Shown here one piece after another: positions 15,919 to 51,263 of a stretch of DNA of 64,000 nucleotides. Numbering within the stretch: position 1 is the stretch's first letter; each line of letters opens with the position of its first letter. The translations under genes and the position numbers were made by a program. The notes beneath the pieces are model-generated. The model ran no database searches. It worked only from the letters and a program-made list of their open reading frames with translations, and was not told where the DNA came from. The DNA is from a virus, in IMG/VR virus record IMGVR_UViG_3300031952_000005, positions 1 to 64,000 of that record; one strand, 5' to 3'.

Positions 15919-16374
15919 ATGAGCAATTGGATTCTTACTAAAAGTAGCAACAAAGTAATTACAAAATTAGAAGATCTACCTGATAATGAACATGTTATAG
16001 GTTTTGTTTACAAAATAACACATGTTGAAACTGGTAAGTTTTACATTGGCAAAAAAAGTCTGTTCTCTTCAAGAAAAACAGCAATAAGTAAAAAGGAAAA
16101 AGCAACTACTGGTACAAGGAAGCGTGTAAAAACAGTAGTTAAACAATCAAATTGGTTGTCATATTTTGGTAGTTGTAAAGAACTATCTGAAGAAGTGTTA
16201 AGAAATGGAGCACATAATTATAAACGCGAAATTCTTGAATTGTGTTGCACTAAGAAATATCTTAATTATTGTGAGTTAGCATATCAAGTAAAAATGGATG
16301 TGCTAACAAACAATAGTTATAATGGTAATATATTAGGAAGATACTTTGCAAGAGATATGCAAAATTGTAAATAA
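15919..16374 (+). CDS. GIY-YIG nuclease (short, resident type)
   Basis: 151 residues. GFVYKITHVETGKFYIGKKS carries the GIY-YIG pair; NWLSYFGSCKEL and YKREILELCCTKKYLNYCEL carry the Arg and catalytic-Glu blocks, followed by NSYNGNILGRY. There is no NUMOD or other DNA-binding repeat. This short form is often found inside replication operons of phages as a resident nuclease. It overlaps the following exonuclease gene by one base, which suggests stable operon membership. Confidence 0.85.
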   Translation: MSNWILTKSSNKVITKLEDLPDNEHVIGFVYKITHVETGKFYIGKKSLFSSRKTAISKKEKATTGTRKRVKTVVKQSNWLSYFGSCKELSEEVLRNGAHNYKREILELCCTKKYLNYCELAYQVKMDVLTNNSYNGNILGRYFARDMQNCK

Positions 16375-31332: not shown

Positions 31333-33258
31333 TTATGTGTATATTACTGTTACTCTGTCTGTCCAAGCAACATTTGTTGCAACACCTTTTGTTACAGAAC
31401 CAAAAGCATTTATAGTTAATCTTGTTATTGTCCAAACATTAGCTGATTCAGAACTTCCTTGAACAGCATAACCATTATATGAATAACTATTACTACCATC
31501 AAAGTTAGTAAAAGAATGTCTTCTAATAAATGATGAACCAGGTGTAACATTCAATGGAATTGGAACAAATGTTCTTACAGGTGTAGTACCACCAAATTGA
31601 AACTGATAACTTGGGTTTGAACCACCAGCTATTCTATTAGCATAAAATTTTAATACTATTCTATCTGTTGATAGAAAATTACCATCATTCCATAAACCAA
31701 TTGCAAAAAACTCAGAATAGGTACCATTACCAATAGGTAAAGTATTATCAGATGTTGCTACAAGTGTTTCTGTTCCACCACTAGTTCTTTTATAAGCTTG
31801 AAAATAAAAAGTAGCATCACCACTACCACTTACTCTTCTTATGTTACCAACAGTTGTAATGTTAAATACACCAGGGTTGCCAATTATAATATTTACTGGT
31901 GATGCTAATGCAGAAATAAATTGTGATGTACCAGTAATAGCACCTGTTGATACATCTGTAGCACCAGTGTTATAACTTGGGTCTGTTATACTAGTAACTA
32001 ATTTAGAATAACCACTAATATCACTAGCAGCAGTTGTTGGATATAAAATTAAGTTACTTGGTAAATCTTGTAAAGATATAAAATGTGTGCTACCATTATC
32101 ACCATCGTTTATTAATTCTGATGTTTTGGTTACCGTTGTACCCAATGTACCATCACCTTTTACATATTGAGCTGTTGTACCTGCACCTGTTATAGCAAAT
32201 GTTCCTGATGAAGTTATAGGAGTAGTAGGTGTAACATTAAATGCTGAAGGTAAAGTTAGTCCAACAGAAGTTACTGTTCCTGAACCTGAAGATATTGTCC
32301 AACTTCTATCAGCAGTTAAATCATAAGTAACGCCATTAATAGTTAATGTTCTTGCATTTGTTACAGGAGTATACCCAAGAGCTGTTGTTACATCTGAAGA
32401 TGTTATTCCTGTTAAGTATATAGATGTATCAAGAGTGAATACGCCTGCGGCTGTCATTTTTACAAATGGTGTACCGCTAGTCCATGTAGGATAGTTTAAC
32501 GCTCCCCAAGTACCTACAGTTGGTATTGTAGGTTTATTTAATATCTGATTGTTACCAGTTGCTGAGTTCCAATTCATAGGTTGTTGAACAATTGGAAATC
32601 CTGTACCAATATTTGTCCAATATAGTGTACTAGTAGGTATTATAGAATCGTTACTAGCTATGCATCTGTAAACATCTCCAAGATAATATACAATATCACC
32701 TATTACATATTCATTATTTGTTGCTGCTAAGTGGTCTGTTGAAAATGGTAAAGCTGAAAGTATAGTTGGTGGTGGACTTACAATACTTGACCAGTTATAT
32801 GACACACCATCTATATTAATTGTATCAAGATCAATAGTTAAATTATGTGCAGCATTTAAATTATCAACTATTTTTATAGTTGCAAATGCATCATTATTTA
32901 AATAAAGTGTTCTGTTATTTACAAAATTTGTAGATTGAATATCTGCAGTACTAGTACCACCAAAGTTAGAAATAGCATTTCCCGCATTAACAACTAACTG
33001 TAAAGATTGTTGTGGATTAATATTACTAATAGCATAATCTAATTTTTCAAGTGCTGATAGTACAGTATCATTTGCAGTAATTACGCCTGGAAGAGGTGTA
33101 AAGTTATCAAGTGGTCTATCTAATACTACATCAGAAATAGTTGTACCATCAAATAGTTTAAAATATCCATCTTTTAAATAAAATTTTTTAAAACCAGTTT
33201 GTACACCTCCAGGTGCTCCTGTATAATTAATAACATGTATAGGTGCAATAAATTTCAT
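31333..33258 (-). CDS. Tail fibre protein
   Basis: 641 residues. The N-terminal part (FKKFYLKDGYFKLFDGTTIS, NDTVLSALEKLDYAISN) looks like the attachment section. The middle contains typical fibre repeats: LGYTPVTNARTLTINGVTYD, GSGTVTSVGLTLPSAFNVTP, GTTAQYVKGDGTLGTTVTKT and STHFISLQDLPSN. The C-terminal 200 residues are a distinct beta domain (PVNIIIGNPGVFNITTVGNI, STDRIVLKFYANRI), probably the receptor-binding tip. These composition and repeat features are common to Bacteroidota phage tail fibres. Confidence 0.82.
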   Translation of the reverse strand: MKFIAPIHVINYTGAPGGVQTGFKKFYLKDGYFKLFDGTTISDVVLDRPLDNFTPLPGVITANDTVLSALEKLDYAISNINPQQSLQLVVNAGNAISNFGGTSTADIQSTNFVNNRTLYLNNDAFATIKIVDNLNAAHNLTIDLDTINIDGVSYNWSSIVSPPPTILSALPFSTDHLAATNNEYVIGDIVYYLGDVYRCIASNDSIIPTSTLYWTNIGTGFPIVQQPMNWNSATGNNQILNKPTIPTVGTWGALNYPTWTSGTPFVKMTAAGVFTLDTSIYLTGITSSDVTTALGYTPVTNARTLTINGVTYDLTADRSWTISSGSGTVTSVGLTLPSAFNVTPTTPITSSGTFAITGAGTTAQYVKGDGTLGTTVTKTSELINDGDNGSTHFISLQDLPSNLILYPTTAASDISGYSKLVTSITDPSYNTGATDVSTGAITGTSQFISALASPVNIIIGNPGVFNITTVGNIRRVSGSGDATFYFQAYKRTSGGTETLVATSDNTLPIGNGTYSEFFAIGLWNDGNFLSTDRIVLKFYANRIAGGSNPSYQFQFGGTTPVRTFVPIPLNVTPGSSFIRRHSFTNFDGSNSYSYNGYAVQGSSESANVWTITRLTINAFGSVTKGVATNVAWTDRVTVIYT

Positions 33259-33302: not shown

Positions 33303-36300
33303 TTATTGATTACGTTTCATAATATCTATTCTCCAATTTGGATCTGCAATGTCTCTAAAGTTTTTAATACCAGTAAGATCGTAAAAATCTTTCATGATTT
33401 TTGCATCACCTTTCTCGTAACCACCAGCTTGTCTCATGTAGTGAGAATCTTTCCAGATTTCATATTTCCATCCACCATCATCTTCATCTGGTTCTTCTGA
33501 ACCATTAATTATCATTGATAGCATTAAGTTTAACATGTGACTACTTGTTGCCATTATTGCGTTTAACTCTCGAGTGTATGCAGTAAATGTTGTAAAGTTT
33601 TTAATATATTCTTTAGAACCTCCTCCAACAGGAAACATTGAGTTTGTTTCACCTTGCACACCCCATAAAACTCTGATTGCATTACCTTCTAAGAAAGAAA
33701 GTTCTTCATCATCATCATCTTTTTTACGAACATATACTAGTGCCATCATACTTAATACAGTAAATAACGCCATCATTATTGCATCGCGTTTTGCTTGATT
33801 AACTTTTCTACTATAAAAGTCATTCATTTTACTTTTGTTAGAACGCATTATGTGTTTGCTACCTAGTACTACATGTTTTGCAACTTCTCCTGGACCATAG
33901 TATTTTACTGCAGTAGCAAATGCTCTCCAGTATCCAACAGCAACTTCGCCTGCTTCATAGTTAGGTCTAAGATATCCAAATCTATTTAACATCTGAGGTA
34001 TTACATATTTTCTAAAGAAAAATACAAGTTTACCAGTTACAGTTTCTTCAAATGCAGTTTGATCTGATTTAGCATAGTTACCCTGTGCTCTACGCATTTC
34101 AGAATAAATAGTATTTCGCAATCTGTTTTCATCTTCTTGTGTATATTCTACATCAGCACGTCTTACAATAGCACCACTGGTATCTTTAATATATACTTCA
34201 TGTGCAGGTATAACTTCCTCTTCTCCTTCTGCATTCTTTCTGTATACTTTTTGACCATTTGCATCAATATCAAATGTTTTATATTTGTAACGATTTAGTA
34301 TAGCATACATTACTGTTACACCTATTTCAGTGTCACCTTTATCTTGTAATAAATATCCAAGTTCTTGTACATTCATTGCTTTTGCTAATAATCTTCTTGA
34401 GCTGTCACCAGTAACTTCATCAACGTATTTTAGATAATCTTTTTGCATTGGATTAAATAATCTGTACATCATGGTAGATTTACTAATGTCACTAACTCTA
34501 CCCCAGTCACCAAAATAGTTTTTGATAAATGCGTTTTCACCAAGTCCATATACTTGTCCTTTTGCCCACATGTAGTCTTCTTGACTGTAGTGATCACTTT
34601 CTAATCCACCTGCAGCAATGAATGCTTGTACATTACCAGATACGTAGTTCTTAGTCTGGTTAACAACATCAAATCCAATTCTGATAAAACTGGTATACGA
34701 CATTACATTATTTACAATCTTGGTAAGTTTTCTATTAAGATATGTAAGTGACTGATCTTGTGCATTAATAAACTTTCTCCTTTCAAATTTAAGTATAGAA
34801 ACCACATTATCAAGTTCTTTAAGACGTTTGTTCATATCAATAGGTCTACCATCTTTATCTGTTACAACTGCTTTGTTTTGAATAGACTTTTTTAAATCTT
34901 CAGATAGTAATTCTATACCTGCAATAAATATATCTCCTACTGGTGCAATTTCTTGCATTGCAATATTATAATGTGCTTCAGTAGTCCATTTAATTAAACA
35001 TCCTATTGCGTCTTTTGATTGCATGTTCTCAGGAAGTTGATCATTAAATCGCTGTCTAATTCTACCACCATTATCACCAAATGTATTATTTACAGTATCT
35101 TGTACACTATGCGTTTTCCATGCTTTGTCAATGTATTGCTCCCATCTATTTTTTGCACCTTCAATTACACCTTCTCTTGAGAAGTTCTGCATTGTAGTTG
35201 ACGCAAATCCAGGAACCATGTATCCAATTTTTTTACCATCTGTTCTTACTTGCAGGTCAAAAAACATCTTAGTTAGTTTATTATAGAAATTGAACAACTG
35301 TGGATCTTGCATTATGTTCATGTATTTACCACTAATATTTTCTGCTTTATAAGCAGAACGATCAATTTGATACACATCATCAGCATCTTTGTATATACCT
35401 TTTGGCATTGGTATACCATCAGGTGATTTTAAAAAGTCTGGATTATAAGATGATTCCTTAAGTTTTTTGATTTTGTATTTTGGATGAGGCAATGTTTCCA
35501 TAAATTCAGCAGCAGCACTAGGTGCAGGAAGTCTCTGATAGTTAAATGATTTTGCAACCATTCTTTTATAAATGTCTTCTTCAGTATCTAGTATACTTTT
35601 ATACGCTTCTTCATGAGTTAGATTGTACCATTTTTGAAATTCTTTTTCGTGTATGTCAAACTGATTTTCTTGGTCAATAACAGCTTTTGTTGCTTCAGTA
35701 ATTAAAGCAGCATCTTTTAAATCTTTTGCTTTTTCTAATGTTAGTTTTGCATTTACTAGTAATTTCTTAGAACTATACAATGCTTTTATTTTTACATCTC
35801 TTATTCTAAGATATGATTTAGTCAACTGCATTGACGCAATTCTGTTAATCTGTTCTTTTATAGAAGTAGATCTTTGTTTTTCTTCTGGAGTTAACTTACT
35901 CATATCAAAAGTCTTACCTTCAAATATAGACTCAAGTTGTGCTTCTATATCAGCAATGTTTTCAGCATCTTCTTCTGTAACAAATTGTGATTGAAGTATA
36001 CCTGCTACTTTGTGAGGTTTTAATATTTCTGAACGCTGTTTTATTAAATCAGCAACAGCAGAATCAGAACCAAATATTTCTGCGCGTTGTTCGTATAAAT
36101 CTGATAATACAGTGTACCATCCTTTTACCAGTTGACCATTAACTTCTTTGTCAGAAGTAGGAACAGTAACCTGGTTATCTTCAAACCATTTTTTAAGTAA
36201 CTCAGGATGCTCTTGAAACTTTGCAATTGCATCTGCTTTTTTTCTTTCAAAGTATGCTATACTTGTATCAAAATCAAAAAGATTATTAAACTCTTCCATG

Positions 36301-39215
36301 TATACAGCATACTGTGGATTAATCTTTTTTGCTTTGTTTCTTAATACACGAATGTCATCTTCTAATTCTTGCAGTCTATCAAAGTCATTGTCATCAAGTA
36401 ACACTTCATTTCCTTTTCCTACTTGGAATGTAATTTGTTGAATTTCAAAATATTTTTCCTGCAGTTCATTTCTAATGTCTTCAGGCATTAACTCTTGCAG
36501 TTTATAAAATGATTCATTAAATGGTAAAGATGTATTATATATTAACCATCTAATTCTTTCTGTATTAAACGCTTCTTTTTCTTTATACTTGTCAAACAAC
36601 TGTTGTTTAGCAGCATCATGTTCAGGAGTGCCAAATTTAGTATTTACCTCACTTACAAGAACACGTATATCAGCATTTAATTCTCTTAGTTTTGAAGTGT
36701 ATTCTTTATAGGTGTTTTCATATTGCTGACTGTATGGTTTATTAAAAGTAAGATTTCTTCTATCTTCATATTCACCAGTGTCTTTATTGAAAACTTTATA
36801 ATCTCTCCACTCAGATATTGCATCATTTAATTCATCAACAGTAAATCTTTTTAATAACTCATCTCTGTCTTTATCAAATTGCATAACAGCAAGGTCATTT
36901 TGCATATTGTATACAGCACGTGCTTGTCCATTTTTGTACATTTGTGTCATTGCAGATATTGCAAGGTCACTATTAGATGCAGATGCAATACCTTGGTCTA
37001 ATAATAATCCTGAAAATAATGATGTACTATTATAAATATCTTGTGAACCAATGTACACTTGTGAATTTGGATCAGTAACAGCATTAATATATTTCTTTAA
37101 TGCTTCTACGTTAAATTCTATTCCAGTAGTAACATACGCGCGTAAACGTAATAACTCAAGTTCTTTACGTTGTATATTGTCTAGTAGATTTTTATTAGTA
37201 ACATTACCTTTTGTAACTTTTTCTACAAACTCAGGTGATATTAATGATATTAAACTTCCTTTTAATTGCTTGAATAATCCTGCTGCTTTACCAGCTTTCA
37301 TATCCTCTAGTTCTTTTTCTAGTTGTGCAATTTTTGGTAAAAGTGCTTCACGTGTTTGTTTATTTACAGAAGAAAACACTGCTTCACCTGGAGTCATAAG
37401 TATCTTTACACCGTTTAGTAAAAATGCCTCTCTAAAATTAGACTCAATAGTTAAGTGATTTAATTCTAGCCGAGTTAATTTCTGATATACAGGACTGCTT
37501 AATGAAATATTATTTTCTGGATTTTTACTTGCGTCGTTAATAATGTTTTTTAATATTTCAACAATATCGCGTAGACCTTTGGATCTTGAAAATGCTTGAT
37601 GTATTTGTGTAGTATCTGTAGTAAAAAAATCTAGTGTGCCATTTCTAAATGATTTAATTGCTTCTTCTGACAAATCAGATAACTTTTGTAAGTCTTCTTC
37701 AGCAGCTGCTAGTATATTAAAAAAGTTATTTTGATATGCTTTATCTGTATTAGATGACTTTTCAACATACTGATTAAACGTTGTAAGAGTTTGTCTTCTT
37801 GTTGCAAGTAACTCGCGTAATGGTGTAGTGTTCTTACCTTGAGAATCTAACTCGTTAATTCTATTACGAATTTCTTCAATCTGTTGTTTATACGCTTCTT
37901 TTAATGCATCCATTATTCTCTGGTTTTCTTCTGCAGTAGGAGTAAACTCTAGAGTCTGAAAGTTTTTTAAAAGTTTATCTTCAACTTCTTTGTTACCAAT
38001 TGGTATTTCTTTATCGATGGCATCACGATATTCTTTTAATCTTCTAGCAGTTTCTAGTGGTTGTGTAACCCAGAATCCTGTAGTATTAGATGGAGTTACT
38101 GCGTATGTTGCATAGTCCCAGTAGTTATTACCTTGAAATATATGTAAAACCTCGCCTAAGAATTTGTTGTTAGCATCTGTCTGATACATAAGAGCAACAA
38201 TCTTACTTTCTTCTGTAACAAGTCCTATTTGACCAAGCATGTTTTCATATGCTTTTAACTGCAGTGTCCAGTTATCGTATGCTGTTCTATTTAAATTTAC
38301 ATTTTCTAATTCACCAGCCATTCCTTTCTGACCTTTTACAAGATAAGAAGTATTAGCAAGATTTTCAAATGCTCTATCTCTATCTACTTCAACACCAAAT
38401 GGTGTAACAGTGACCATGTTGTGAACTTTTTTAGTCTTAAAGTCAAACACTTTTACTTTACCAGAGTTACTGATAAGAAGTAAATCTAAACGACCAACTA
38501 CAAAGTTACCATTAGCATCTTTACCAGCAAGTGTAATTTCAGGTAATATAATATAACCTTCATCTTTGTTTATAGATACATGTTTTGCAACGCGTGTTGC
38601 CATGTCAAATATCTTTTCTTTAGATAGTTCTTCAATATAAAATGGAGTTCTTTCTAAATACTTCTTGTATGTTTCATCAAAAAATTCTTCAGTAAGTACA
38701 ACTTCAATACTTGAGTTTTTCTTTAATGCTTCTATCTGTGCTTTCTCTAACACATTATGCATAAATGTACCAAACAATTTAAATGCTTCATACTTTAAAG
38801 GATCACCTTTAAACTCAGAAGAACCAATAAATGATGTTACAGAATAAGAAGGTAGTGTATTTCGACCATCTTTGCGTAATTCAATATTCTTTTCTAGAAA
38901 CGCTTGATAGTCTCTGTTGTTTTGCATTAACTTGCCAATTGCCTCACGTTGTGCATTGTTTGCAAATAAACTAATATTTGCTAGAGTAGCTGCTTGTTCT
39001 TTAGTTCTTTCCAGTTTAAATTCATCAGAGTGTCGAACATGTCGCTCATCAGTTTCTTCAACTTTCATACCAGCAATAAGAGCTTTTGCTTCATCAACTG
39101 ATGGAATAATATCTTGATTTAATGTAACAGCAGTTCTTGCAAGAGCTTCATTACCTTCAAATGCAGCAACAAGTGCTTTGAACATTGGATCATTTATGTT
39201 AATACAATTTGTCAT
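33303..39215 (-). CDS. Virion megaprotein with N-terminal RecB-like nuclease
   Basis: 1970 residues, the second giant gene downstream of the RNA polymerase-type protein. An N-terminal segment shows RecB-like nuclease motifs in order: FMHNVLEKA (H153), a conserved Glu in ILPEITLAG, VGRLDLLLI (D244), VKVFDFKTKK (D258-x-K260) and LQLKAYENML (Q319-x3-Y323). The middle 1000 residues are mostly coiled, charged helices. The C-terminal third has compact blocks (MNVQELGYLLQDKGDTEIGV, GKLVFFFRKYVIPQMLNRFG) and one membrane-like segment near residue 1815 (MMALFTVLSMMALVYV) followed by KKDDDDEE. Probably packaged in the virion and ejected with DNA. Confidence 0.8.
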   Translation of the reverse strand: MTNCININDPMFKALVAAFEGNEALARTAVTLNQDIIPSVDEAKALIAGMKVEETDERHVRHSDEFKLERTKEQAATLANISLFANNAQREAIGKLMQNNRDYQAFLEKNIELRKDGRNTLPSYSVTSFIGSSEFKGDPLKYEAFKLFGTFMHNVLEKAQIEALKKNSSIEVVLTEEFFDETYKKYLERTPFYIEELSKEKIFDMATRVAKHVSINKDEGYIILPEITLAGKDANGNFVVGRLDLLLISNSGKVKVFDFKTKKVHNMVTVTPFGVEVDRDRAFENLANTSYLVKGQKGMAGELENVNLNRTAYDNWTLQLKAYENMLGQIGLVTEESKIVALMYQTDANNKFLGEVLHIFQGNNYWDYATYAVTPSNTTGFWVTQPLETARRLKEYRDAIDKEIPIGNKEVEDKLLKNFQTLEFTPTAEENQRIMDALKEAYKQQIEEIRNRINELDSQGKNTTPLRELLATRRQTLTTFNQYVEKSSNTDKAYQNNFFNILAAAEEDLQKLSDLSEEAIKSFRNGTLDFFTTDTTQIHQAFSRSKGLRDIVEILKNIINDASKNPENNISLSSPVYQKLTRLELNHLTIESNFREAFLLNGVKILMTPGEAVFSSVNKQTREALLPKIAQLEKELEDMKAGKAAGLFKQLKGSLISLISPEFVEKVTKGNVTNKNLLDNIQRKELELLRLRAYVTTGIEFNVEALKKYINAVTDPNSQVYIGSQDIYNSTSLFSGLLLDQGIASASNSDLAISAMTQMYKNGQARAVYNMQNDLAVMQFDKDRDELLKRFTVDELNDAISEWRDYKVFNKDTGEYEDRRNLTFNKPYSQQYENTYKEYTSKLRELNADIRVLVSEVNTKFGTPEHDAAKQQLFDKYKEKEAFNTERIRWLIYNTSLPFNESFYKLQELMPEDIRNELQEKYFEIQQITFQVGKGNEVLLDDNDFDRLQELEDDIRVLRNKAKKINPQYAVYMEEFNNLFDFDTSIAYFERKKADAIAKFQEHPELLKKWFEDNQVTVPTSDKEVNGQLVKGWYTVLSDLYEQRAEIFGSDSAVADLIKQRSEILKPHKVAGILQSQFVTEEDAENIADIEAQLESIFEGKTFDMSKLTPEEKQRSTSIKEQINRIASMQLTKSYLRIRDVKIKALYSSKKLLVNAKLTLEKAKDLKDAALITEATKAVIDQENQFDIHEKEFQKWYNLTHEEAYKSILDTEEDIYKRMVAKSFNYQRLPAPSAAAEFMETLPHPKYKIKKLKESSYNPDFLKSPDGIPMPKGIYKDADDVYQIDRSAYKAENISGKYMNIMQDPQLFNFYNKLTKMFFDLQVRTDGKKIGYMVPGFASTTMQNFSREGVIEGAKNRWEQYIDKAWKTHSVQDTVNNTFGDNGGRIRQRFNDQLPENMQSKDAIGCLIKWTTEAHYNIAMQEIAPVGDIFIAGIELLSEDLKKSIQNKAVVTDKDGRPIDMNKRLKELDNVVSILKFERRKFINAQDQSLTYLNRKLTKIVNNVMSYTSFIRIGFDVVNQTKNYVSGNVQAFIAAGGLESDHYSQEDYMWAKGQVYGLGENAFIKNYFGDWGRVSDISKSTMMYRLFNPMQKDYLKYVDEVTGDSSRRLLAKAMNVQELGYLLQDKGDTEIGVTVMYAILNRYKYKTFDIDANGQKVYRKNAEGEEEVIPAHEVYIKDTSGAIVRRADVEYTQEDENRLRNTIYSEMRRAQGNYAKSDQTAFEETVTGKLVFFFRKYVIPQMLNRFGYLRPNYEAGEVAVGYWRAFATAVKYYGPGEVAKHVVLGSKHIMRSNKSKMNDFYSRKVNQAKRDAIMMALFTVLSMMALVYVRKKDDDDEELSFLEGNAIRVLWGVQGETNSMFPVGGGSKEYIKNFTTFTAYTRELNAIMATSSHMLNLMLSMIINGSEEPDEDDGGWKYEIWKDSHYMRQAGGYEKGDAKIMKDFYDLTGIKNFRDIADPNWRIDIMKRNQ

Positions 39216-39218
39216 ATC

Positions 39219-42200
39219 TTATAAACATTTAAGTTTTTCTATAATTTCTTGATTTGTCATTCCTGTTGTTTTCAAATTAGCAGCATAAGCAGCAAACTCA
39301 GTAGAGTAAGTATCAAATGATTTACCAGTAGCACTCTGATCATAAAAATATTTTACCATATCAAAGGTAACATTAATATTCTGAATATCTAAATCCAATT
39401 TTGATGGTGTAGTTGTTTCAAAATAATCAACATAATAATCAGTAGGATCACTTTTTAAAGTTTCTAATGATGTTTTTAAGTTGTTTATTTTAGTTATAAT
39501 ATTTTGTTTTTCTGCAGCATTAACAGCTTTAAAAACAAAGTTATCTACAGAACCTGTTTTTGTGTAACCATCTTTATCTATTTTAATAGTGTATTCTTTA
39601 TTTTTAGCTGCTCTACCTTTTACAATTGCATAATCAGTATATCTTTCAATTTCTAAAACTTTAATTTTATATTCAGAAGAATTATCATCATTGTAAACTG
39701 TAAGAATGCTACCCACAGTAGTTTCAGTTGCTCCTGTAAGTTGTTGTCTTAATGATTCAAGTTCTTTATTAATTTTTTCATTATTAGATTTAACAGTATT
39801 ATATTTTTCTTCAGCTTTTAAAAAATTATACGCTTGTTTAATAGTGTCAAAATCTTTTTGTTCAATTTTATCTTGTAGACTTCTTAATGAAACACCTTGT
39901 TTTAATTGATCTATTGTATATTCTTTAAAAATGCTTTCTAAAGTTAAAATAACAGGTGTTTTAGGTTTAACAGAATAATCTTCAAACATGTCTGCAGTTA
40001 AACCTTGAGTCATTTCTTCTGCAACATCTACTTCTGACACATCAAGTCTTGCTTTTTTATTAACCAAACTTGTGTAGCGTTTTGATTCTGCAACACTGAA
40101 TCCAATAGGACTTATTGTATTTACTGCAAGTTCCATTGGAAGTGCCACATATTTTGCAGCATTACCTACTGTTTTAAATTCACCAGTACCAGATATTGAA
40201 TTGATAACAGATTTACCAAAACTTTGATTATAAATTTGACTGTCTACACCTTGTAACAAAAATGTAGTTTTACCCATTCTTAACATAATAGGAAACTTGT
40301 ACTTGTTCTTTTCATCTTTGTCTTTAAAGATATTTAGTTTTTCACCAATTGCTGCAATAGCACCACTTGTTGTTTCTTCCATCTCATTAGCACCTTTCAT
40401 GTTAATGATAATTTCTTCAAGTTTTTGATCAGCTCCAAATATAGTATCTGTTAGTAAGAAAGATTTTTGTGTTGGACTTAGTGTAAGACCTAATACTTTA
40501 CCAACTATTTCATTTGCAATTGCTGTACGTTCATTAACATCAGTAGTTTTAAAATTAATATTTTTCATAAGTTTAGAAGAAAACCCTTCTGACTGATTGA
40601 ATGAAATAGTATTACTCTTTTTATTAGATGTAGATTTTATCTTTTTATTACCAACTTCTTTTGATGCACCATATGCCATCAGTACAAACAAGTCATCAAA
40701 TAACTTGTACACATCTTCTTGTGTAGCAGGATTGTCAGGAGTACTAATGTAATCTTGTATTGCATCAACTAATTCTTTTTTATTACCTTGTGCATTATCG
40801 AGTATTTTAATAAACTCTTCTATGTTTTTAGATAATGGTATTTGTAAATCTGCTGGCAAATACTGTAAGAATGAACCTGATTTATATTGCAAACCTGTTC
40901 TAGCAAGTTCATGATAAAATAATTTTTTCATAAACAAGTTCTCTTGTTGCAATAAGAAATAAGCATCATCAGCTATGTTATCAGCTAACTCACCAGCAAT
41001 CTTTGCTTTACTTACCATCTCTAAAGTTTTTTCTTGAATGTTTTCTCCATCAGTAGTAAGTACTGTTGATTTACTATTAGACACTTTTAAGAACTGTAAA
41101 AACCTATTTTCAGGATATTCAGTCTTCATTGCATCTAGTTCTTTCTCAATTGAATTTGTAAACCATTGATCTGCTTTAAATGTATTAATTAAGTTTTTAT
41201 CATCTTCATCAAAACTTGCTTGCATAGATGGATTAGTACTTTTTCTACTACCAGGTACAGATATCTGATACTTACGTATAGCAATAAAACTTGTAATAAG
41301 TCTTGCAATATTTGATGAGTCTGTATATACAGTTTCAAATGCATTTTTAATTGGTTGAAAGAAAAGAGTTCTTTCTAAAAATATTTTACCTGCTTGTTCA
41401 TCTAAATCATTCATTGCATCTGCTAATGGAACCCATGCTTGTTTACCATCAAATAATTTATCACTTGATTCTTTAGTAAACATAGACTCACCATTACGTA
41501 GTTCATTGATACTTCTTTGTAATTTATCAAATGATATAAAAGTTGGATTAATTTTCTTATACAAGTTTACTAATGAACCTGCGTTTCTAATACCCCATGT
41601 TTGCTGTGTTTGTTCTTTATATAACTGTAATAATATTACTTTCTGTGCTTCATTAGATAATAGAGTAGTTACACCTTTTATATGAGAAGATACAGTAAAT
41701 CCAATATCTTCAACAGTAAGGGTGTTACTTTCTAGTCTACTTTCATTAAGAGCATTCTGTTGAAAATCAATCATCAAGTTTTCCTTGTTGATTTTAACAT
41801 TACCAGGAAATGAATCTTGTGTAATTAATCCTGCATCTTTTAGTTCATTTAATAATGCTGCATTACCATTGTTTTTGATAAAGTCTTCCATTTCAGTTTT
41901 TAACTCATTAGTCAAAAACTTGAACTCAGTTGATATAGAGTCACTTACTGCAAAACGAGATGCTTGTACTTTATTAATTGCATTGTTAATTTCTGGAATA
42001 AAGTTAAATCCAAATGCAAATGCGGGATCTAATCCAATACCTATCATTGCAAGAGTAACTCCTGTATTTATTTCATTCATTCCAAGTGCTGCTGGAATAG
42101 GTTTTTTCATACCATCTGCAGCAATACCTAATACAACACCATTTAACATGATTACTCGTTGTCCATTTTTGTTTATTACACCAAATTTAAAAAGATTATT

Positions 42201-45200
42201 TTGTGTAACAACTGTACTACCATCTGATTGTAAATCATTACTTGCATATTTCCAAATTACATTATCAGAATTAAGTTCTAATTCATACTGACTTGCAAGT
42301 GCCAAGAACTTCTGCAATGATGCAGCAATACCAATCATGTCTTTGTATGCAGCACCTAATGCTTTAGATTCAATAACTGATGTAATTGTGTTGGGATCAG
42401 ACTTAGGTCCAAAGTTATCAAGATCTCTACCATATCCTGTTACAATACTTTCAAAATATTCTGTAGAAGAAGTCTCGTGTATATACAAGTTTTTAAATAC
42501 TGCTTCGTTAGATAGTATATCTATTTTTGCTTGTAAGTTTTTATTTTGATGTATTGGTAGTACTGACAAATGATTTACAATATTACTATCAAAGTTTGCT
42601 TGGTCTACTGGTAAACCATATTTTTCAAATACTTGCAGTGCTGCTTCTATACGTAATGAACCATTTGCAAAAGTTCTTAATCTACGTTTTTCATCACGTG
42701 TCTTTTTAAGATCTTGATATGTTTCATCAAGTTCAGTTTTTAAATCAAAATGTTCTTTACCAAATTTTCTACGATTTGCTTTTGCAAGATAATCATCAGG
42801 ATCATTTTCTGTATCTTCAATAGATTGAACAAATGCTTGTTTAACTACTTTTTTTTCAGATTTTATTTGTTTAATATCATCTTGTAAATCTTCTTCATAA
42901 CTTTCGAGTTCTTCATATATACCTGAAGTCATTGCTTTAATATAGTCTTCTTGAGTGTATCCCATTGCATACATAACTTCTAGAGCATTTGCACTTACAG
43001 AAAAATTATTTGTTTCAGTTAATGCTTTTCTTTTTGCACTGATCAACTTTCTAAAGTTTTCATCATCTGCCCTGTAATGTATGTACTCAATAAACTTACC
43101 TTGTGCAGGAGATTTATAAATGTTATAGTTACCATATTTTGCGTAGTCACCAACAGCATTTACATAATGAGCAAATGTTTGACCATAAAGTGAGTCAACG
43201 TCAAAGTCAGATCCAGCAAGTAAGTGTATAAATTGTGGTACAATAATACTATTTATGTGAGAACTATCTATATAATCTACCACTTTTAATACAATCATAG
43301 AACGTTTATCCTCAGTAGGAATACGTAATGCAAACATTTCACGAAGATTTTCCATAAAAAAATCTTCTTGTTGTTGACTTCTAAAAAATTGTTTTGGTAA
43401 TATACATTCTACAAAGTATTTTTTACTAACCAGTTCTCCTGCATCATCATATTCTGCTTCTATACGTACACCTAATGGTCTTACTTTTGTATTACGATAT
43501 TTTCCTGGATTATTTCTGTATTCTTCAGTTGTTATTACTTCACCATTTTCATCTTCTCTTACATCATAACCAAATGATGATACGTGAATGTTTTTAAATC
43601 CAGAACCTTTTTCATCTGTTATATGCTTACTATAAAGCGAAAAGAAATAATATTCTAGCATACTTCTTATTCCAGGTAAGTTAGGACTATGAACTGGTTT
43701 ACCAAAAGCATCAACATCAAATAGTTTTAATACTGAAGATGGTGCATTCTGTTGCTCAAGATTTTCTCTTATTAAATCAAATACTTTACCTAAATCAAAG
43801 TCTTCACCTTTACGTAAAAAGTGCTGTAACGACTGCAGATTAGAATCAGAAATATCATAAAGTGACTCTTGATATTTAAGAAGACTGTCACCTAATTCAT
43901 TCATTGCTTTTCTTTCAGTAGAAGACATAATTGTACCCGCCTCTGCATGACGTTTGTTTGCAAGTTCTTCTATGTAATTTAAATCTGCAGGTAATAATAT
44001 TTTACCTTGTACAGAGAATCGTGCAGTGTCATGTACACCAGAAGTTTCTACTTGAAGATACTTGTCTTCATTGTTTACTTTTAATGATGATATATTTAAT
44101 GGTAAGTAGTCATTATCAGCATGTGCAAAATAATCAACAGGAAGTTTTGTAGCATTTTTAGATGCTTCAGTATCCATGATTTGATCAATATTATGATACT
44201 CCATAGAATTTAAAATTTTATGCAATTTTATTCTATTTGGTTCATATTTTGCATGTATCTCAAGATATGTTTTTTGAATTTGTTGTTCTAATTCTTCAAT
44301 ATTACTGCTTACACTACCATCTTTGTTTATCTTATGATGTTCTTGTATTTGTTTACGTAAGGCGTATATAGTCATGTATTTGTCATGCAAATTATCATAT
44401 ACTTGATCACGAGTCATTCCTTCAGGTATAATTAATATACTTACATCATTTCTATCAATGTAACTTTCTGATTGTTTGTGATAAATATTACGAGAAGCAG
44501 TAACAGTCTTTTTAGGATTGTTTACTACTTTGTTTTTTTCCATTTTGAGTACTTCTTCTTCAGTAAGTTCACGATAATGTTTTGCAATTATAGAATGCAA
44601 TATCTCAGGAGTAAGTCTTCCTAATGATTCATGCATATCTGCTTGATGAAACAATGATGAAATACTCTGACCATCAAATACTTTTTGATTTAGTTTAAAG
44701 TTCTCATAGATTGTTTTACGTATTGTTTCATCTGGAATTTGAATATCATCTAGTACTTCTTGTGGAGAATAAAATGGACCATAATTAGGATGTTCTTCAT
44801 TAATATATCCAAACAATGTGTTAAGATAAGCAACTGTGTGTTTACCTTCTTTCATTGTACTACCAGATGCAAGAAACTTTTTATTACGTTTAGTAGAATC
44901 AATACCATCTTTAACGTTCATTGCTTTATCACCTGTATACAATTCATTTACCATTAGTGAATTATACCACTGATTGAAAAAGAAATCTGCTAGTAATCCA
45001 TTTAAATCAGCACGAGATTCTAATACACCTTGTACATTATAGTTTGGTTTTGTATTTGCATAAACAGAAGTAGTACTTACTGCAAGATTGTTATCAATTT
45101 TTAAAGTATCAGCAATAAGAGAAGATGTTAAGTATCTTAACGATGGTTGTTTTGTTTCAAACACTACAGGATACCCTTCTTCTTCAATAACTTTTCCTGT

Positions 45201-48200
45201 TGCAGGATCTTTCTTAATTGCTTTTACAGATTCTTCTTTTTCATTTACAACACCAAGTTTTTTTAAAGTGTTAATGTATGTGTTTAGTTCTTCTAACGCA
45301 AAATCATTTAATCCTTGACGTAAATCTGCAAGTGTACTTTCATCAATGTCTTCAAAGGATGCTTTGTCATCTTTAGCATACTCTAGTAATTTACTAGTAA
45401 GTAACTCATTTTTAGCATTTGCAAAAAAGTATGGTAAGTAATTAAAGTTATATGCTCTTAAATTTTCACTATCAACAGTTGCTCTTGTTTTATCATCCTT
45501 GCTTAGTACACCATTGTAGTTATTAATAAGTTTGTTAGAACTACCATCATCAAAGTTTTTTTTGTTAACCTCTCTTCTGTTCCATTCTTTTTTGATTCTG
45601 TTAAATTCTTGTTTTACTTTTCCTTCTAAATCATTTACAATTTTTAAATTCTTACCATCTTTTACAAGACCATTTTTATCAGCGTATGTTTGATAAAGAG
45701 ATGTAATTAAAAAGTTTGTTTGAGATGCCTCAAGAGTATCAAATGTACGAAGGAATGTCTGGATACTTGTTTTAGGAGTAGTTATGTTACCATCTTCATC
45801 AACAACAGTTTCATATGAAGAAACAGTTGTTCTTTGTAAAAATGATAGTATACTCATTACATGGAATGATTGTTTATCAAGTTTACCAAAAGTTTTACCT
45901 TCCTTGTATGTCTGGTTATTCATCTGAGCAACTCCACCAAACAATGATATGTTAGTATTGTCTAATAGTAACTTAGCAATTGTTGCTTGTTTACTAGTTT
46001 TGTCTTTTAACAAGTCGCCAAATAATGGATTGTCATTATAAAAGTCTTCTAAGAAATCATCATAGTATGGATCAGTTCTTAATGTATCTTTTAATCCTTC
46101 TCTTCTTAATGATTGACCTGTTAAAATTAATGGTGTATATTTCGTATAACGATACACAGGTTTACCAGCAGCATTACGAAATACACTTGGTAAATCAGTT
46201 GCATCATATTTTAATATGTATTTAGCAAATCTAGTAGAGATGTTAAAGAATGCACCTAAGTTTTTATTATTTTCATCAAGTGTTTTTCCAAATGCGTTTG
46301 AACTAATAGACTCATTTATTACTGGATCATATATTGATTTTATACTTCTAAAAAATTGTTTTTCAAGATACGCTTTATCAGCAATCATTGCAGAATTTGT
46401 AGCGTAATGATCTAGTGTCTTCTTGTCTATGTTTTCAAGAGCACCGTTAAGATTGTCAATTTTATCTATTGCAAGAATAGACATTCTGATTAATGATTTT
46501 GGTAATGTAATGCCTACATCTTTAAATGCATTATACAATTCAAATGTCATAGTTTCCAATACTGTATTTGCATTTAATAAACTACCTATAAGTATTTTTT
46601 TATTAATAATGTTTTCAGATAAAGTAACAAGTCTTTTTACTGCAGTTACATATTCAGGATCAGTTCTTTTTTTAGCGTGTGTTGTTATCATAGATGATAC
46701 CATGTCACGTCTTTTCTTTAATGCATCTGCTTGAAGAACTCTATCTGTTAATGTAAAACTTTCAATATTATTACCTGCTTCTTCAATTTCTGCAGTTTTT
46801 AAACGAGCATTTAACATTACATATTCTATTTCAGTACCATGAAGTACATCTATAAACATATTATATAATTCTTTGTTTGTTGATGGATTACCATTGGTAT
46901 CCATTCCTGTGTACTCTTTTAACTGATTGTAAATTGCTTGTAAATCAGCAGCTGCATCAAAATTACCATCTTCTTTATAGATTTTAGCAGTAACTTGCAT
47001 ATTGTTTATAATCTCATCTACTTTGACATCAGCTGATATTTTTAGTAATGAACCAAAAATACTTTCTCCATCAATTACTCTTGGAAATAGTATACCAGAT
47101 TCTGTATCTTCTTTCTCATAACTTATAATACCAAGAAATCTTCTTAATTGTCTTGGAGCTGAGTCAAGTCTGTTGTGCTCACCAAATCCTTCATCAATAT
47201 TTATATCATCAGAAATTTCTTCACCATCTTCAAAGTCTTCATCAACTTGTGACTTTTTTTCATTTTCACCTGCTAATTCTTTTAACAGTGTATTTTTATC
47301 AATTGCTGTACCAGTACCATCCAGTAATGAATATAACTCTTGAGTTTTTTTCTTAACTAGTTTTTTTAATACTTCAACAGATACTTGTCCAAGATTATTA
47401 TCTAAAGGATCTGCTTCATATTGTTTTACTTTATTTGGTAATACTTTACCCTTGTATGCAGCATTGCCTGAGTTATTTATATCATTAACAGTTTCATTAT
47501 TTAACCTTGCTCCTAACATAAATCTATATTGAGAAACAAGATTGCTATATTGTTCAAGAACTTGTTTTTCTTTACCAGGATTCTTTTTAATCAATTCATC
47601 AAGATTATATACTTTTTCAAGTAACAATGTTTGCGCTGTTTTAAATTTTGCATCAAAAGTTTGTCCAGATGTATTTTCAATAACATATTTTGTCATCATA
47701 TATACCAACTGATTTTGTTCAGCTTTTAATAATGTTGTAGGTGATTGACTAACGCCAGATGATGAATACTTGTCGTTAATAATTTTTTTCAATCCAGGTA
47801 TTAACTCATATGCTGCTTGTCCATCATATAATTCAGATTGTATTTGTTCTGATTTATAGTATCCTCTTTTGATATTCTTGTATGTACTGTCAACTAGATT
47901 ACTTCTTTGAGTAAACATGTCAATCAGTTTTTTTAGTAACTCAAATAATTTTGCTACAAGACCTTGTGGTTTTGTATTTTTATTCATGTAGTTTTGAAAA
48001 CCATCTGCAAGAATTTCTTCTGCTTGTAACTGAAACATTTTATCATACTCATACACATAGTTTTTTTCACTTGCAAATTTCTTTAATGCTGCAGGTGTAA
48101 ATGCACTCTTGTGTTTTTTATTAGATGATACTGCATCAATTAATCTTGAACGTTGTTCTGGTGTCATCAAGTATCTAAACACACCATGAAATGCCTCGTG

Positions 48201-51200
48201 AAATACTACACCTTTTGACAAGATAGAGTTATTCAAATAGATAACTTTGTCTTTAAACATTCCTAGTACGTTACCATCAATACTTGACAAATCAATTATA
48301 CTTGCAATTTCTTCTTGACTGATACCAAACTGAGGAAGATTTTCTTGTAACCATTGTACAGCATTCTGTCTTTCTGCTTCTGTTTCTGTTTGTACTTCTG
48401 TATTAGAAATAGAAAACATTTCATTTTCAGGAATATCATCTATAGTAACATTATTACTGTCTGTTACAATAATAGGTTGAGCTTGTACAACAACAACGTT
48501 TTCTACAGGGTGCTGTGTAACTTCTAATGGACTTTTATTAGATAAAGGTATTCCAGCAGCAGTTGGAGATTTTGAAGTGATTACAAGACGATTTCTTGGT
48601 ACATCTGATATATTAAAACTATTTACATTTCTTTCATAATCTTTTTTTGCTTGTGTGTCATTTAAATCTGAAAATACAACACGAGAAACTTGTTTACCTT
48701 CATCATCAATATCTACTACTAAATGTTTTGGTTCTGGATAGTCATTCATAAAGTTTTCAATAAATCCAGGATATTTTTTACCATTTTCTAGTAACTGTCC
48801 AATAACTTTATTAATTATTAATTTTGAAAACCCTTCTTGTTGTTCTTTTATTGCATCAATTAATTTTACTACATTAGGAGAAGAATTTGTATTACTATAC
48901 ATTTCATTTACCATGGAGTAAAACTTTGCAAGATCTTTTTGTTTGTTTAAATCTAATTTAGAAAATGCAATATTTTCTGCAACAACATCTGCTACTAATG
49001 AAGCATTGCCTCTTAGTGTACTTGCAAATGCTATTATTTTTCCTTCTTCACCATTAACAATTTTACCATCTACTACTCTTGGACCAAACGTAAAGTTAAA
49101 ATCTGATTTGTTATCTTCTATAAAACCATACTTACTATCTTTTGATTTATTAGATGGTCGTACTTCAATTTGCAAATGTCCATTTTGATCACTTGCAAAA
49201 TTTATAAATAATTCTACTTTTTTATTTGCTGATGCAAACGCTTTAAATTTGTAAACTTTTCTATCAAATGATTGTAATTGTAATTTTCTATCAGCAGCAT
49301 TTAATACATCAGATAACGTAGTTATAAATGTAGCAAACCCTTCTACTTGTGATAATACATTTACAGGAGATACTGCTCGCCATCCATATGTACCATTATT
49401 ATTAAACCTTATAATAATATGTCTCTGCGTATTATAACTACTACCTTTAAATATTTGATCTTTAATGTATGAATCATCAAGTTTTATTCTAGAATCAAAA
49501 TGTGAATTTACGTATTCTTCCTGTGTAACAATATCTTGTACATTACCTTGATTATCTTTTACAACAATTCTTTCATTAGAATTTAGTGTATTTAATAATC
49601 TAAATTTACTTTGTTTTGCTTTTTCAGGATAGTTTCCATCCTTATTTTTTTTGTCAGAAAACTTAGTAAATGCAAATACTACATTACGCTCTTCTTCTTT
49701 TATAGTTTTACCAACCTGGTCAATAGTGGCAATAGTTAATTTACGTGATAAATTTGTTTCTTCTTCTATTACTTCAGAAAGATTTTTAATTTTTGTGTCA
49801 CCTGTTTTTTGAGAACCAATGTTGTACTGAGAAAAGAATTGTTCTGTTACATCAACAGAATTTACATCATCAGTAAACTGAGGTTCTACAATTGCTGATA
49901 GTTGCTCTTTAAAGTCATTGTATAACTCATAAGCGTTTTTCATTGTGTTAATATCGTTCTCATCTAAACTATCTGTAGTATTATCATTTAATCTTTTGAT
50001 AGACAGTTCTTTAACTTTTTCAAGATGTACAGGATTTGAAAAATCTATTTTTTGTGAAGTGTTATCACTATTTAAAAATACATAGTTATCTAATGGATAC
50101 AAGTAAAATTTTTCACCAGTACCAATTATCTCACCAACTAATGCAAATTTACTTTCAGATTGTTGTGGTCTAGCAACTGTAATAACAGTTCCTTTTGAAG
50201 TTGATTTTAAATATTTTATTTGAGTTTCATTTTCAAATGTTTCATGTGTTCTGTTTGCAAGTCCTTTATATTTTGGATTAGTTGCAGCAAGTCCTTGTAT
50301 TCTACTGATACGATCATCACCAACAGTACTTAATGAAACAGCATGTATTCTTACACCTGCTGATGGAAAACCTGTTTTAGCAAGATTCTTTAATGCATCT
50401 TCAACTTTTTGTTGTAAACCAATTTCACTTCTTATAGGTTTAATAGTAAAGTTAGATGATATTCTATCCTGATAAAATTCTTGTTGTCCTTTGTTACTAT
50501 TAGATGTATCATCATTACGTGCAGGTCTTTCTGTTAAAATATCTTCAGCATCAAGTTTAAATTCATCACCATTTTCAGTTGTTATAAATAATCCTTCAGG
50601 TTTACTTGTTGCTTCAACCATGTTATTATCCTTAAATGTAACAAGAACAGTTTTTAATTCAGCAAGATCTGATATATCTCGTATTGCAATAAAATCAGAT
50701 TGTTTATTTAAAGATTCTATAACAGAGGTCATTCGACTTAATAAAAAACTTTTGTTATCAAAATTATTTATAACATCTCTTAGTTCAGATGTAATATAAA
50801 TTAATATAGTATTTTTTGTTTCAAGATCTTCAAAATCATTTGTGTTAAAATAGTTATTAATCATTGTGAGTACTTCTGTAAGATCATCACCAGTTATAAC
50901 TTTTTTATTTTCAAGATTTAGTATTGCTCTTTGAATTGCTTCAACTTTTCCAATAGGTGTTTTCTTAACAGTATATAATGGAGATATTGAAGAAAGAAAA
51001 TTATCAGCATCAGATAATAATATTTTTGCATCAATGATTTTTTCTGCATTTCCTACTTCATAAAATGATTGATCTAATCCATTTAAACCAACATATATTT
51101 CTGCAATAGAAAATAAAGAAAGTGATTTTTCATAATTAGAAAGACCACTTTTTAAAATAAACTTTGCAGTATTGTCAAAGTTCTTATATGTTTCAGGATT

Positions 51201-51263
51201 TAGTTTGATTAAATTTCTTACAACTGATACAAATTTGTCAGTTGATAATTCACATTGTTTCAT
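39219..51263 (-). CDS. Putative virion RNA polymerase with zincin domain
   Basis: 4014 residues. The double-psi-barrel active-site motif is GSD2686-F-D2688-V-D2690-S, preceded by FALR2647-I-P-T2650; this is the spacing of the NRAPT and NADFDGD motifs of cellular beta-prime subunits (35 residues apart there, 39 here). crAss-like phage phi14:2 gp66 is an experimentally shown single-chain virion polymerase of this type. A second domain upstream is a zincin: VVFH1022-E1023-A-F-H1026, with AEEILADGFQNY about 70 residues later as likely third ligand. N- and C-terminal regions, about 900 and 1200 residues, are unassigned. Likely packaged, injected, and responsible for early transcription. Confidence 0.88.
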   Translation of the reverse strand: MKQCELSTDKFVSVVRNLIKLNPETYKNFDNTAKFILKSGLSNYEKSLSLFSIAEIYVGLNGLDQSFYEVGNAEKIIDAKILLSDADNFLSSISPLYTVKKTPIGKVEAIQRAILNLENKKVITGDDLTEVLTMINNYFNTNDFEDLETKNTILIYITSELRDVINNFDNKSFLLSRMTSVIESLNKQSDFIAIRDISDLAELKTVLVTFKDNNMVEATSKPEGLFITTENGDEFKLDAEDILTERPARNDDTSNSNKGQQEFYQDRISSNFTIKPIRSEIGLQQKVEDALKNLAKTGFPSAGVRIHAVSLSTVGDDRISRIQGLAATNPKYKGLANRTHETFENETQIKYLKSTSKGTVITVARPQQSESKFALVGEIIGTGEKFYLYPLDNYVFLNSDNTSQKIDFSNPVHLEKVKELSIKRLNDNTTDSLDENDINTMKNAYELYNDFKEQLSAIVEPQFTDDVNSVDVTEQFFSQYNIGSQKTGDTKIKNLSEVIEEETNLSRKLTIATIDQVGKTIKEEERNVVFAFTKFSDKKNKDGNYPEKAKQSKFRLLNTLNSNERIVVKDNQGNVQDIVTQEEYVNSHFDSRIKLDDSYIKDQIFKGSSYNTQRHIIIRFNNNGTYGWRAVSPVNVLSQVEGFATFITTLSDVLNAADRKLQLQSFDRKVYKFKAFASANKKVELFINFASDQNGHLQIEVRPSNKSKDSKYGFIEDNKSDFNFTFGPRVVDGKIVNGEEGKIIAFASTLRGNASLVADVVAENIAFSKLDLNKQKDLAKFYSMVNEMYSNTNSSPNVVKLIDAIKEQQEGFSKLIINKVIGQLLENGKKYPGFIENFMNDYPEPKHLVVDIDDEGKQVSRVVFSDLNDTQAKKDYERNVNSFNISDVPRNRLVITSKSPTAAGIPLSNKSPLEVTQHPVENVVVVQAQPIIVTDSNNVTIDDIPENEMFSISNTEVQTETEAERQNAVQWLQENLPQFGISQEEIASIIDLSSIDGNVLGMFKDKVIYLNNSILSKGVVFHEAFHGVFRYLMTPEQRSRLIDAVSSNKKHKSAFTPAALKKFASEKNYVYEYDKMFQLQAEEILADGFQNYMNKNTKPQGLVAKLFELLKKLIDMFTQRSNLVDSTYKNIKRGYYKSEQIQSELYDGQAAYELIPGLKKIINDKYSSSGVSQSPTTLLKAEQNQLVYMMTKYVIENTSGQTFDAKFKTAQTLLLEKVYNLDELIKKNPGKEKQVLEQYSNLVSQYRFMLGARLNNETVNDINNSGNAAYKGKVLPNKVKQYEADPLDNNLGQVSVEVLKKLVKKKTQELYSLLDGTGTAIDKNTLLKELAGENEKKSQVDEDFEDGEEISDDINIDEGFGEHNRLDSAPRQLRRFLGIISYEKEDTESGILFPRVIDGESIFGSLLKISADVKVDEIINNMQVTAKIYKEDGNFDAAADLQAIYNQLKEYTGMDTNGNPSTNKELYNMFIDVLHGTEIEYVMLNARLKTAEIEEAGNNIESFTLTDRVLQADALKKRRDMVSSMITTHAKKRTDPEYVTAVKRLVTLSENIINKKILIGSLLNANTVLETMTFELYNAFKDVGITLPKSLIRMSILAIDKIDNLNGALENIDKKTLDHYATNSAMIADKAYLEKQFFRSIKSIYDPVINESISSNAFGKTLDENNKNLGAFFNISTRFAKYILKYDATDLPSVFRNAAGKPVYRYTKYTPLILTGQSLRREGLKDTLRTDPYYDDFLEDFYNDNPLFGDLLKDKTSKQATIAKLLLDNTNISLFGGVAQMNNQTYKEGKTFGKLDKQSFHVMSILSFLQRTTVSSYETVVDEDGNITTPKTSIQTFLRTFDTLEASQTNFLITSLYQTYADKNGLVKDGKNLKIVNDLEGKVKQEFNRIKKEWNRREVNKKNFDDGSSNKLINNYNGVLSKDDKTRATVDSENLRAYNFNYLPYFFANAKNELLTSKLLEYAKDDKASFEDIDESTLADLRQGLNDFALEELNTYINTLKKLGVVNEKEESVKAIKKDPATGKVIEEEGYPVVFETKQPSLRYLTSSLIADTLKIDNNLAVSTTSVYANTKPNYNVQGVLESRADLNGLLADFFFNQWYNSLMVNELYTGDKAMNVKDGIDSTKRNKKFLASGSTMKEGKHTVAYLNTLFGYINEEHPNYGPFYSPQEVLDDIQIPDETIRKTIYENFKLNQKVFDGQSISSLFHQADMHESLGRLTPEILHSIIAKHYRELTEEEVLKMEKNKVVNNPKKTVTASRNIYHKQSESYIDRNDVSILIIPEGMTRDQVYDNLHDKYMTIYALRKQIQEHHKINKDGSVSSNIEELEQQIQKTYLEIHAKYEPNRIKLHKILNSMEYHNIDQIMDTEASKNATKLPVDYFAHADNDYLPLNISSLKVNNEDKYLQVETSGVHDTARFSVQGKILLPADLNYIEELANKRHAEAGTIMSSTERKAMNELGDSLLKYQESLYDISDSNLQSLQHFLRKGEDFDLGKVFDLIRENLEQQNAPSSVLKLFDVDAFGKPVHSPNLPGIRSMLEYYFFSLYSKHITDEKGSGFKNIHVSSFGYDVREDENGEVITTEEYRNNPGKYRNTKVRPLGVRIEAEYDDAGELVSKKYFVECILPKQFFRSQQQEDFFMENLREMFALRIPTEDKRSMIVLKVVDYIDSSHINSIIVPQFIHLLAGSDFDVDSLYGQTFAHYVNAVGDYAKYGNYNIYKSPAQGKFIEYIHYRADDENFRKLISAKRKALTETNNFSVSANALEVMYAMGYTQEDYIKAMTSGIYEELESYEEDLQDDIKQIKSEKKVVKQAFVQSIEDTENDPDDYLAKANRRKFGKEHFDLKTELDETYQDLKKTRDEKRRLRTFANGSLRIEAALQVFEKYGLPVDQANFDSNIVNHLSVLPIHQNKNLQAKIDILSNEAVFKNLYIHETSSTEYFESIVTGYGRDLDNFGPKSDPNTITSVIESKALGAAYKDMIGIAASLQKFLALASQYELELNSDNVIWKYASNDLQSDGSTVVTQNNLFKFGVINKNGQRVIMLNGVVLGIAADGMKKPIPAALGMNEINTGVTLAMIGIGLDPAFAFGFNFIPEINNAINKVQASRFAVSDSISTEFKFLTNELKTEMEDFIKNNGNAALLNELKDAGLITQDSFPGNVKINKENLMIDFQQNALNESRLESNTLTVEDIGFTVSSHIKGVTTLLSNEAQKVILLQLYKEQTQQTWGIRNAGSLVNLYKKINPTFISFDKLQRSINELRNGESMFTKESSDKLFDGKQAWVPLADAMNDLDEQAGKIFLERTLFFQPIKNAFETVYTDSSNIARLITSFIAIRKYQISVPGSRKSTNPSMQASFDEDDKNLINTFKADQWFTNSIEKELDAMKTEYPENRFLQFLKVSNSKSTVLTTDGENIQEKTLEMVSKAKIAGELADNIADDAYFLLQQENLFMKKLFYHELARTGLQYKSGSFLQYLPADLQIPLSKNIEEFIKILDNAQGNKKELVDAIQDYISTPDNPATQEDVYKLFDDLFVLMAYGASKEVGNKKIKSTSNKKSNTISFNQSEGFSSKLMKNINFKTTDVNERTAIANEIVGKVLGLTLSPTQKSFLLTDTIFGADQKLEEIIINMKGANEMEETTSGAIAAIGEKLNIFKDKDEKNKYKFPIMLRMGKTTFLLQGVDSQIYNQSFGKSVINSISGTGEFKTVGNAAKYVALPMELAVNTISPIGFSVAESKRYTSLVNKKARLDVSEVDVAEEMTQGLTADMFEDYSVKPKTPVILTLESIFKEYTIDQLKQGVSLRSLQDKIEQKDFDTIKQAYNFLKAEEKYNTVKSNNEKINKELESLRQQLTGATETTVGSILTVYNDDNSSEYKIKVLEIERYTDYAIVKGRAAKNKEYTIKIDKDGYTKTGSVDNFVFKAVNAAEKQNIITKINNLKTSLETLKSDPTDYYVDYFETTTPSKLDLDIQNINVTFDMVKYFYDQSATGKSFDTYSTEFAAYAANLKTTGMTNQEIIEKLKCL

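Follow-up and report, generated by a model that had tools for sequence, protein, structure and literature searches.

Background

CrAss-like phages occur in extremely high abundance, and the way in which the cargo proteins of their virions take over the cell is largely obscure. The main text of Yutin et al. 2021 (PMC7886860) describes PD-(D/E)XK (PDDEXK) domains in large proteins of the transcription block of these phages, many of which are said there to possess two to three PDDEXK nucleases; a 2023 review repeats the report and terms the function unclear. MS has detected gp47, gp49 and gp50 of crAss001 in virions (PMC10172136). Polyvalent proteins are also relevant here, which the main text of Iyer et al. 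2017 (PMC5512222) presents as giant, multidomain and presumed to accompany the phage DNA into the cell, alongside N4-like vRNAPs fused to zincin-like peptidases; that main text mentions neither crAss phages nor RecB-type nucleases.

The window analysed here is the whole of a 64,000-nucleotide stretch (positions 1 to 64,000 of IMG/VR record IMGVR_UViG_3300031952_000005), which is part of a 105,464-base virus record. As in the phages covered by the main text of Yutin et al. 2021, it encodes, beside a crAss-like RNA polymerase, a giant protein that contains a PD-(D/E)XK domain, and the record has three PDDEXK genes. Since such domains were already reported from the crAss-like transcription block in 2021, the one in the window does not represent a new system and its novelty is limited; what is new here is that a previously uncharacterised lineage has the active site complete and conserved. 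The placement also differs, the domain lying near the N-terminus of a gp65/gp49-type protein in the window, whereas in crAss001, cr116_1 and cr128_1 it belongs to a gp47-type protein and its active-site His is replaced by Asp.

Genomic context

Judged by its capsid, ring, portal and terminase genes, the record is a Crassvirales-type phage: the part beyond the window contains genes for a Crassvirus major capsid protein, crass ring protein 2, and a crass-related portal and terminase, and within the window a replication block comprises helicases, a primase, a DNA polymerase and an exonuclease. The gene of interest (33303-39215, minus strand) is a single unbroken ORF of 1970 codons running from 39215 to 33303, and its full-length relatives encode 1961-2038 aa at 72-81% identity and lower. 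A search of the phage collection with the 1970-aa protein returned nothing from the window's lineage above ~25% identity. The first-pass annotation, which gave coordinates without a strand, had put this gene right after an RNA polymerase, and this is indeed where it lies, starting, in transcription order, 3 nt past the stop of a gene for a 4014-aa virion-type RNA polymerase (39219-51263, minus strand). The latter carries DFDVD at residues 2686-2690 (window 43194-43208) and matches a crAss-like "RNA-polymerase subunit" by tblastn (E=6e-9); used as a query for relatives, it found none. A DFDxD polymerase adjoins the nuclease-bearing gene in the window and in the relatives L001, L003-L006, L055-L057 and L061, among others. 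In one relative (L059:196-9999) the nuclease-bearing gene is preceded by a giant polymerase gene that is broken up into two ORFs, of 2595 and 665 aa. Upstream of the polymerase, a 1604-aa protein (51282-56096, minus strand) occupies, by gene order, the position of gp67 in Cellulophaga phage phi14:2, and has a weak match (E=7e-7) in the same order in Leptolyngbya phage Lbo-JY46.

The other two PDDEXK genes of the record are a stand-alone exonuclease in the replication block (16374-17417, plus strand; PDDEXK_1 E=1.1e-7, PHROG exonuclease VIII E=7e-20) and a gene near the terminase (record 98282-98809). Against these two the profile of the nuclease domain scored only 4.4 and -0.8 bits, which rules out their recent duplication as the origin of the domain.

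The predicted nuclease domain

The domain spans residues ~105-405 (38001-38903, minus strand), on the evidence of Pfam, AlphaFold2 and structural alignment. H153, D244, D258-x-K260 and Q319-x3-Y323, from which a Cas4/RecB-type nuclease had been proposed, are present at exactly those positions; to them should be added E226, equally invariant yet missing from that motif list, so that the active-site span reads H153, E226, G241xxD244, D258xK260, Q319xxxY323 (38247-38759, minus strand). Pfam PDDEXK_1 matches the whole 1970-aa protein above its cut-off of 22 bits (26.5 bits, E=7.3e-6, residues 147-265), matches the isolated domain with 29.2 bits, and is matched individually by all 19 relatives.

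The relatives found initially were 72-81% identical, too close for testing whether the motif is conserved, and the first alignment queries recovered only the same six contigs. A degenerate C-terminal alignment used as query gave 23 loci, and an N-terminal nuclease alignment gave 24. Across 19 sequences, H153, E226, G241, D244, D258, K260, Q319 and Y323 are unchanged in every one, at identities down to 22%, and the same holds for G149, L224, G252, F257-K262 and L327. The two most divergent sequences are ~22% identical. For L064 and L065 the search pattern itself had partly selected for the FDFKTK stretch (D258/K260), and only the remaining residues count as independent evidence in these two; their full proteins also score above the PDDEXK_1 cut-off. 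The domain is under purifying selection: when the window is compared with the three relatives L001, L002 and L003, dN/dS comes to about 0.15-0.2.

When AlphaFold2 was given only five close relatives the domain was modelled with a pLDDT of 43, whereas the 19-row alignment raised the mean to 84.8 (pTM 0.83). The predicted core follows the alpha-beta-beta-beta-alpha-beta order expected for PD-(D/E)XK (model numbering H40-61, E118-128, E134-144, E150-159, H208-225, E230-242), and in the model the first long helix carries H153, strand 1 E226, strand 2 D244, strand 3 both D258 and K260, and the next helix Q319 and Y323. The best structural match (VIA-align; Foldseek) is AddA (Z 12.8, rmsd 6.2, 176 aligned), and RecE matches with Z 10.1 (rmsd 4.0, 176 aligned), although the large rmsd values limit these matches to the common core. 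Further matches are AdnA (Z 10.7), RecB (10.0), MGME1 (9.4), Dna2 (8.8) and Cas4 (8.7), and sequence identity in the alignments to AddA, RecB, RecE and MGME1 is only 12-18%. The viral models that match best come from crAss-like phages, cr116_1 and cr108_1 among them, and represent either giant proteins or separate exonucleases.

The PDDEXK_1 match, the invariant active site, the confident fold and the matches to AddA, RecE and RecB are independent lines of support, by which we take the domain to be real; that it is a RecB-type PD-(D/E)XK core with an apparently intact active site is a solid prediction. Structure prediction thus returned the nuclease fold, and the motif residues proved invariant among homologs, so that the earlier assignment of a RecB-type core withstood both checks. 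It was too wide in one respect. Cas4 and AddB-like Fe-S nucleases carry a four-cysteine Fe-S cluster around the nuclease core, whereas the translation has no cysteine in residues 105-405; there can therefore be no such cluster, which leaves the domain AddA/RecB/RecE-like and rules out Cas4. To the exonuclease domains of AddA, RecB, RecE and MGME1 it is similar in predicted fold and in modelled active-site arrangement; it differs from them in that no helicase partner was found within the 1970-aa protein.

Neither PHROGs nor NCBIfam names a family in the domain, and the one hit from PADLOC, to another PDDEXK nuclease, is weak (E=0.03). When phages were searched by tblastn with the isolated domain, all matches had E>0.1, and a PDB sequence search with the nuclease profile gave no meaningful match. 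In one pair of relatives (L026:5357-11431 and L027:2962-9036) identity is 69-83% in the nuclease domain but 92-99% over most of the remainder. For this pair, the sequences may be read as recombination or as faster change in the nuclease module; a low-identity module of this kind was not seen in other close pairs.

Homology to virion proteins of crass-like phages

Residues 1490-1846 (33678-34748, minus strand) form a conserved C-terminal region, which hhalign connects to the C-terminus of phi14:2 gp65 (E=8.6e-7), to crAss001 gp49 (E=5.2e-5) and to a protein of Leptolyngbya phage Lbo-JY46 (E=7.1e-9), and which cr116_1 QOR59395 matches by tblastn (E=1e-8) and hmmsearch (E=2.8e-13). The place after the polymerase gene is likewise shared with gp65 and gp49, gp65 lying directly after the catalytic gp66, and the phi14:2 record annotates gp65 from MS/MS proteomics. 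The 1970-aa protein is, from its sequence, best explained as the crAss-like counterpart of this vRNAP-associated protein, and we infer on good grounds that it would be located in the virion and injected. However, gp65 and gp49 differ from it in that no PDDEXK domain is detectable in either, gp65 having a HExxH zincin-like region instead, and their presence in virions consequently does not prove that a nuclease-bearing form is packaged. The earlier description of a virion protein has partial support, from C-terminal homology and gene order; the crAss001 PDDEXK protein detected in virions is gp47, with its His-to-Asp replacement.

The most hydrophobic segment of the protein, its Kyte-Doolittle maximum at residues 1811-1829 (33729-33785, minus strand), is followed by DDDDEE, and in 13 of 14 homologs, very distant ones included, the maximum falls at 89-94% of the length, usually with an acidic stretch after it. 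This segment could possibly be a membrane-interacting helix that makes contact with the membrane during ejection.

Lbo-JY46 (L009, PP438436.1) is recorded on a cyanobacterium and has a crass-type portal (30.6% identity over 97%, E=3e-102). Since crass-like phages are as a rule associated with Bacteroidota, it would be worth checking either the recorded host or how wide a range of hosts the group has.

Variable N-terminal domains

Among the closest known counterparts, both ends of the protein are combined in cr108_1 QOR58988 and cr55_1 QOR58154, from human gut Crassvirales, which are large RNAP-block proteins with a C-terminal hmmsearch match to the 1970-aa protein and, by eye, a complete H/E/D/DxK/QxxxY set; cr55_1 QOR58154 is encoded directly after a 4551-aa protein. 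They differ from the window protein in their very low sequence identity to it, and cr55_1 further in having a zincin-like HExxH upstream of the nuclease, a motif of which the 1970-aa protein has none.

Elsewhere other combinations are found. In the proteins phi14:2 gp65 (L019:10998-15263) and L041:7157-11329 the zincin-like HExxH region is present and PDDEXK was not detected; cr55_1 (L082:10238-16261) and L065:8072-13765 have both, and in the clade of the window PDDEXK occurs alone. The HExxH regions of these four proteins lie near the N-terminus and have a common downstream N-(V/I)-(H/D)-EF motif; the zincin assignment is by motif and local similarity only, Pfam naming none, and each single HExxH has a 1-4% probability by shuffling. 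In the Lbo-JY46 protein a GNAT acetyltransferase domain occurs together with two HExxH motifs. In the gp47-type proteins of crAss001 (L018:16120-23145), cr128_1 (L081:13910-21073) and cr116_1 (L008:21342-29012) the PDDEXK domain is the one with Asp in place of His. These sequences suggest that the N-terminal enzymatic domains may be an exchangeable set on a shared crass-like vRNAP-associated scaffold. In the main text of Yutin et al. 2021 we found no description of a gp65/gp49 scaffold with variable N-terminal enzymatic domains, and we do not claim it as new. The zincin peptidase is one of the domains known from polyvalent proteins; a zincin-like HExxH occurs in the relatives phi14:2 gp65, L041, cr55_1 and L065, and Pfam recognised in the 1970-aa protein none of the accessory domains listed for polyvalent proteins by Iyer et al. 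2017.

Possible role of the nuclease

Taking together the domain, its predicted fold and conserved active site, the pairing with the polymerase gene and the C-terminal homology to reported virion proteins, the explanation that accounts best for the locus, and the one we hold to be probable, is an early, metal-dependent DNA exonuclease that accompanies the polymerase. The 1970-aa protein would be packed in the virion together with the polymerase encoded next to it, leave the virion at the same time as the phage DNA or before it, and refold inside the cell, where the nuclease would act early at DNA ends, presumably as an exo- rather than an endonuclease; its putative targets are host DNA, competing DNA or the end of the incoming genome. 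Of the roles suggested in the first-pass annotation, an attack on host DNA, plasmids or defence nucleic acids and a processing of the incoming genome would be equally conceivable. The replaced His of crAss001 gp47, whose PDDEXK domain is the virion-detected one, counts against this explanation, and packaging poses a problem, in that a nuclease which is active would have to be restrained while it is kept beside the genome. The stored enzyme could be kept harmless by its need for DNA ends, by metal limitation, or by partial unfolding in the capsid, the last having been discussed for crassvirus cargo (PMC10172136). A conserved, complete active site beside a virion polymerase is in any case a concrete, testable enzyme (K260A, D258A), whose significance would be greater if it proves to be injected and to work within minutes of the start of infection.

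One may also consider that the nuclease serves the cell in which the virions are produced, in late replication, concatemer or end processing, or packaging, and is dispensable in the newly infected cell. This is the main rival, which we regard as unlikely though deserving serious attention: the gene sits in a late structural or cargo-type gene order, and RecB-type exonucleases typically process DNA ends, but the nuclease is fused to a vRNAP-associated protein whose homologs are virion components, and two other PDDEXK genes already reside in the replication and structural blocks. A catalytically dead fold, retained for DNA binding or structure, would be in line with the loss of His in the gp47-type domains of crAss001, cr128_1 and cr116_1, which indicates that degeneration does occur within the crass-like group; we nevertheless find it improbable here, since all 19 sequences keep every catalytic residue although identity falls to 22-50% in the remainder.

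The genetic link to an RNA polymerase raises yet another alternative, in which the domain cuts RNA for transcription, by transcript trimming or primer production. PD-(D/E)XK domains of some RNA-virus polymerases cleave RNA, and lower-ranked structural matches do include the RNA nucleases Rai1/DXO (Z 7-8). Such values below 8, however, may reflect merely a shared arrangement, and both Q-x3-Y and the top matches (AddA, AdnA, RecE, RecB and MGME1, all DNA exonucleases) make RNA cleavage very improbable. As for the possibility that residues of a helical megaprotein line up by chance, the bare motif, if its spacing is left loose, does occur in ~25% of residue shuffles of the 1970-aa protein, for which reason it was dropped as sole evidence for a nuclease; a stricter version (GxxD, hydrophobic-D-hydrophobic-K and Q-x3-Y) occurs in none of 2000, and this reading, refuted by the Pfam match, the fold and the conservation, has a likelihood close to nil.

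The preferred reading, an injected early exonuclease, has a more daring extension, to which we give little credence, whereby nuclease and virion polymerase would be parts of one injected machine, end resection exposing a single-stranded template to the adjacent polymerase and the N-terminal domain (zincin, nuclease) being an exchangeable payload of the vRNAP-associated protein. Were this true, genome entry, end-processing and first transcription would be coupled, and the resected end could belong to the phage DNA as it enters or to the DNA of the host.

Two minor observations concern other genes of the record. The next gene downstream (window 31333-33258) has a match to the carbohydrate-binding family CBM_5_12 that falls under the cut-off (E=2e-4), and the structural block includes a protein with a Fib_succ_major domain (L011:1139-2794, record 81139-82794; E=3e-31).
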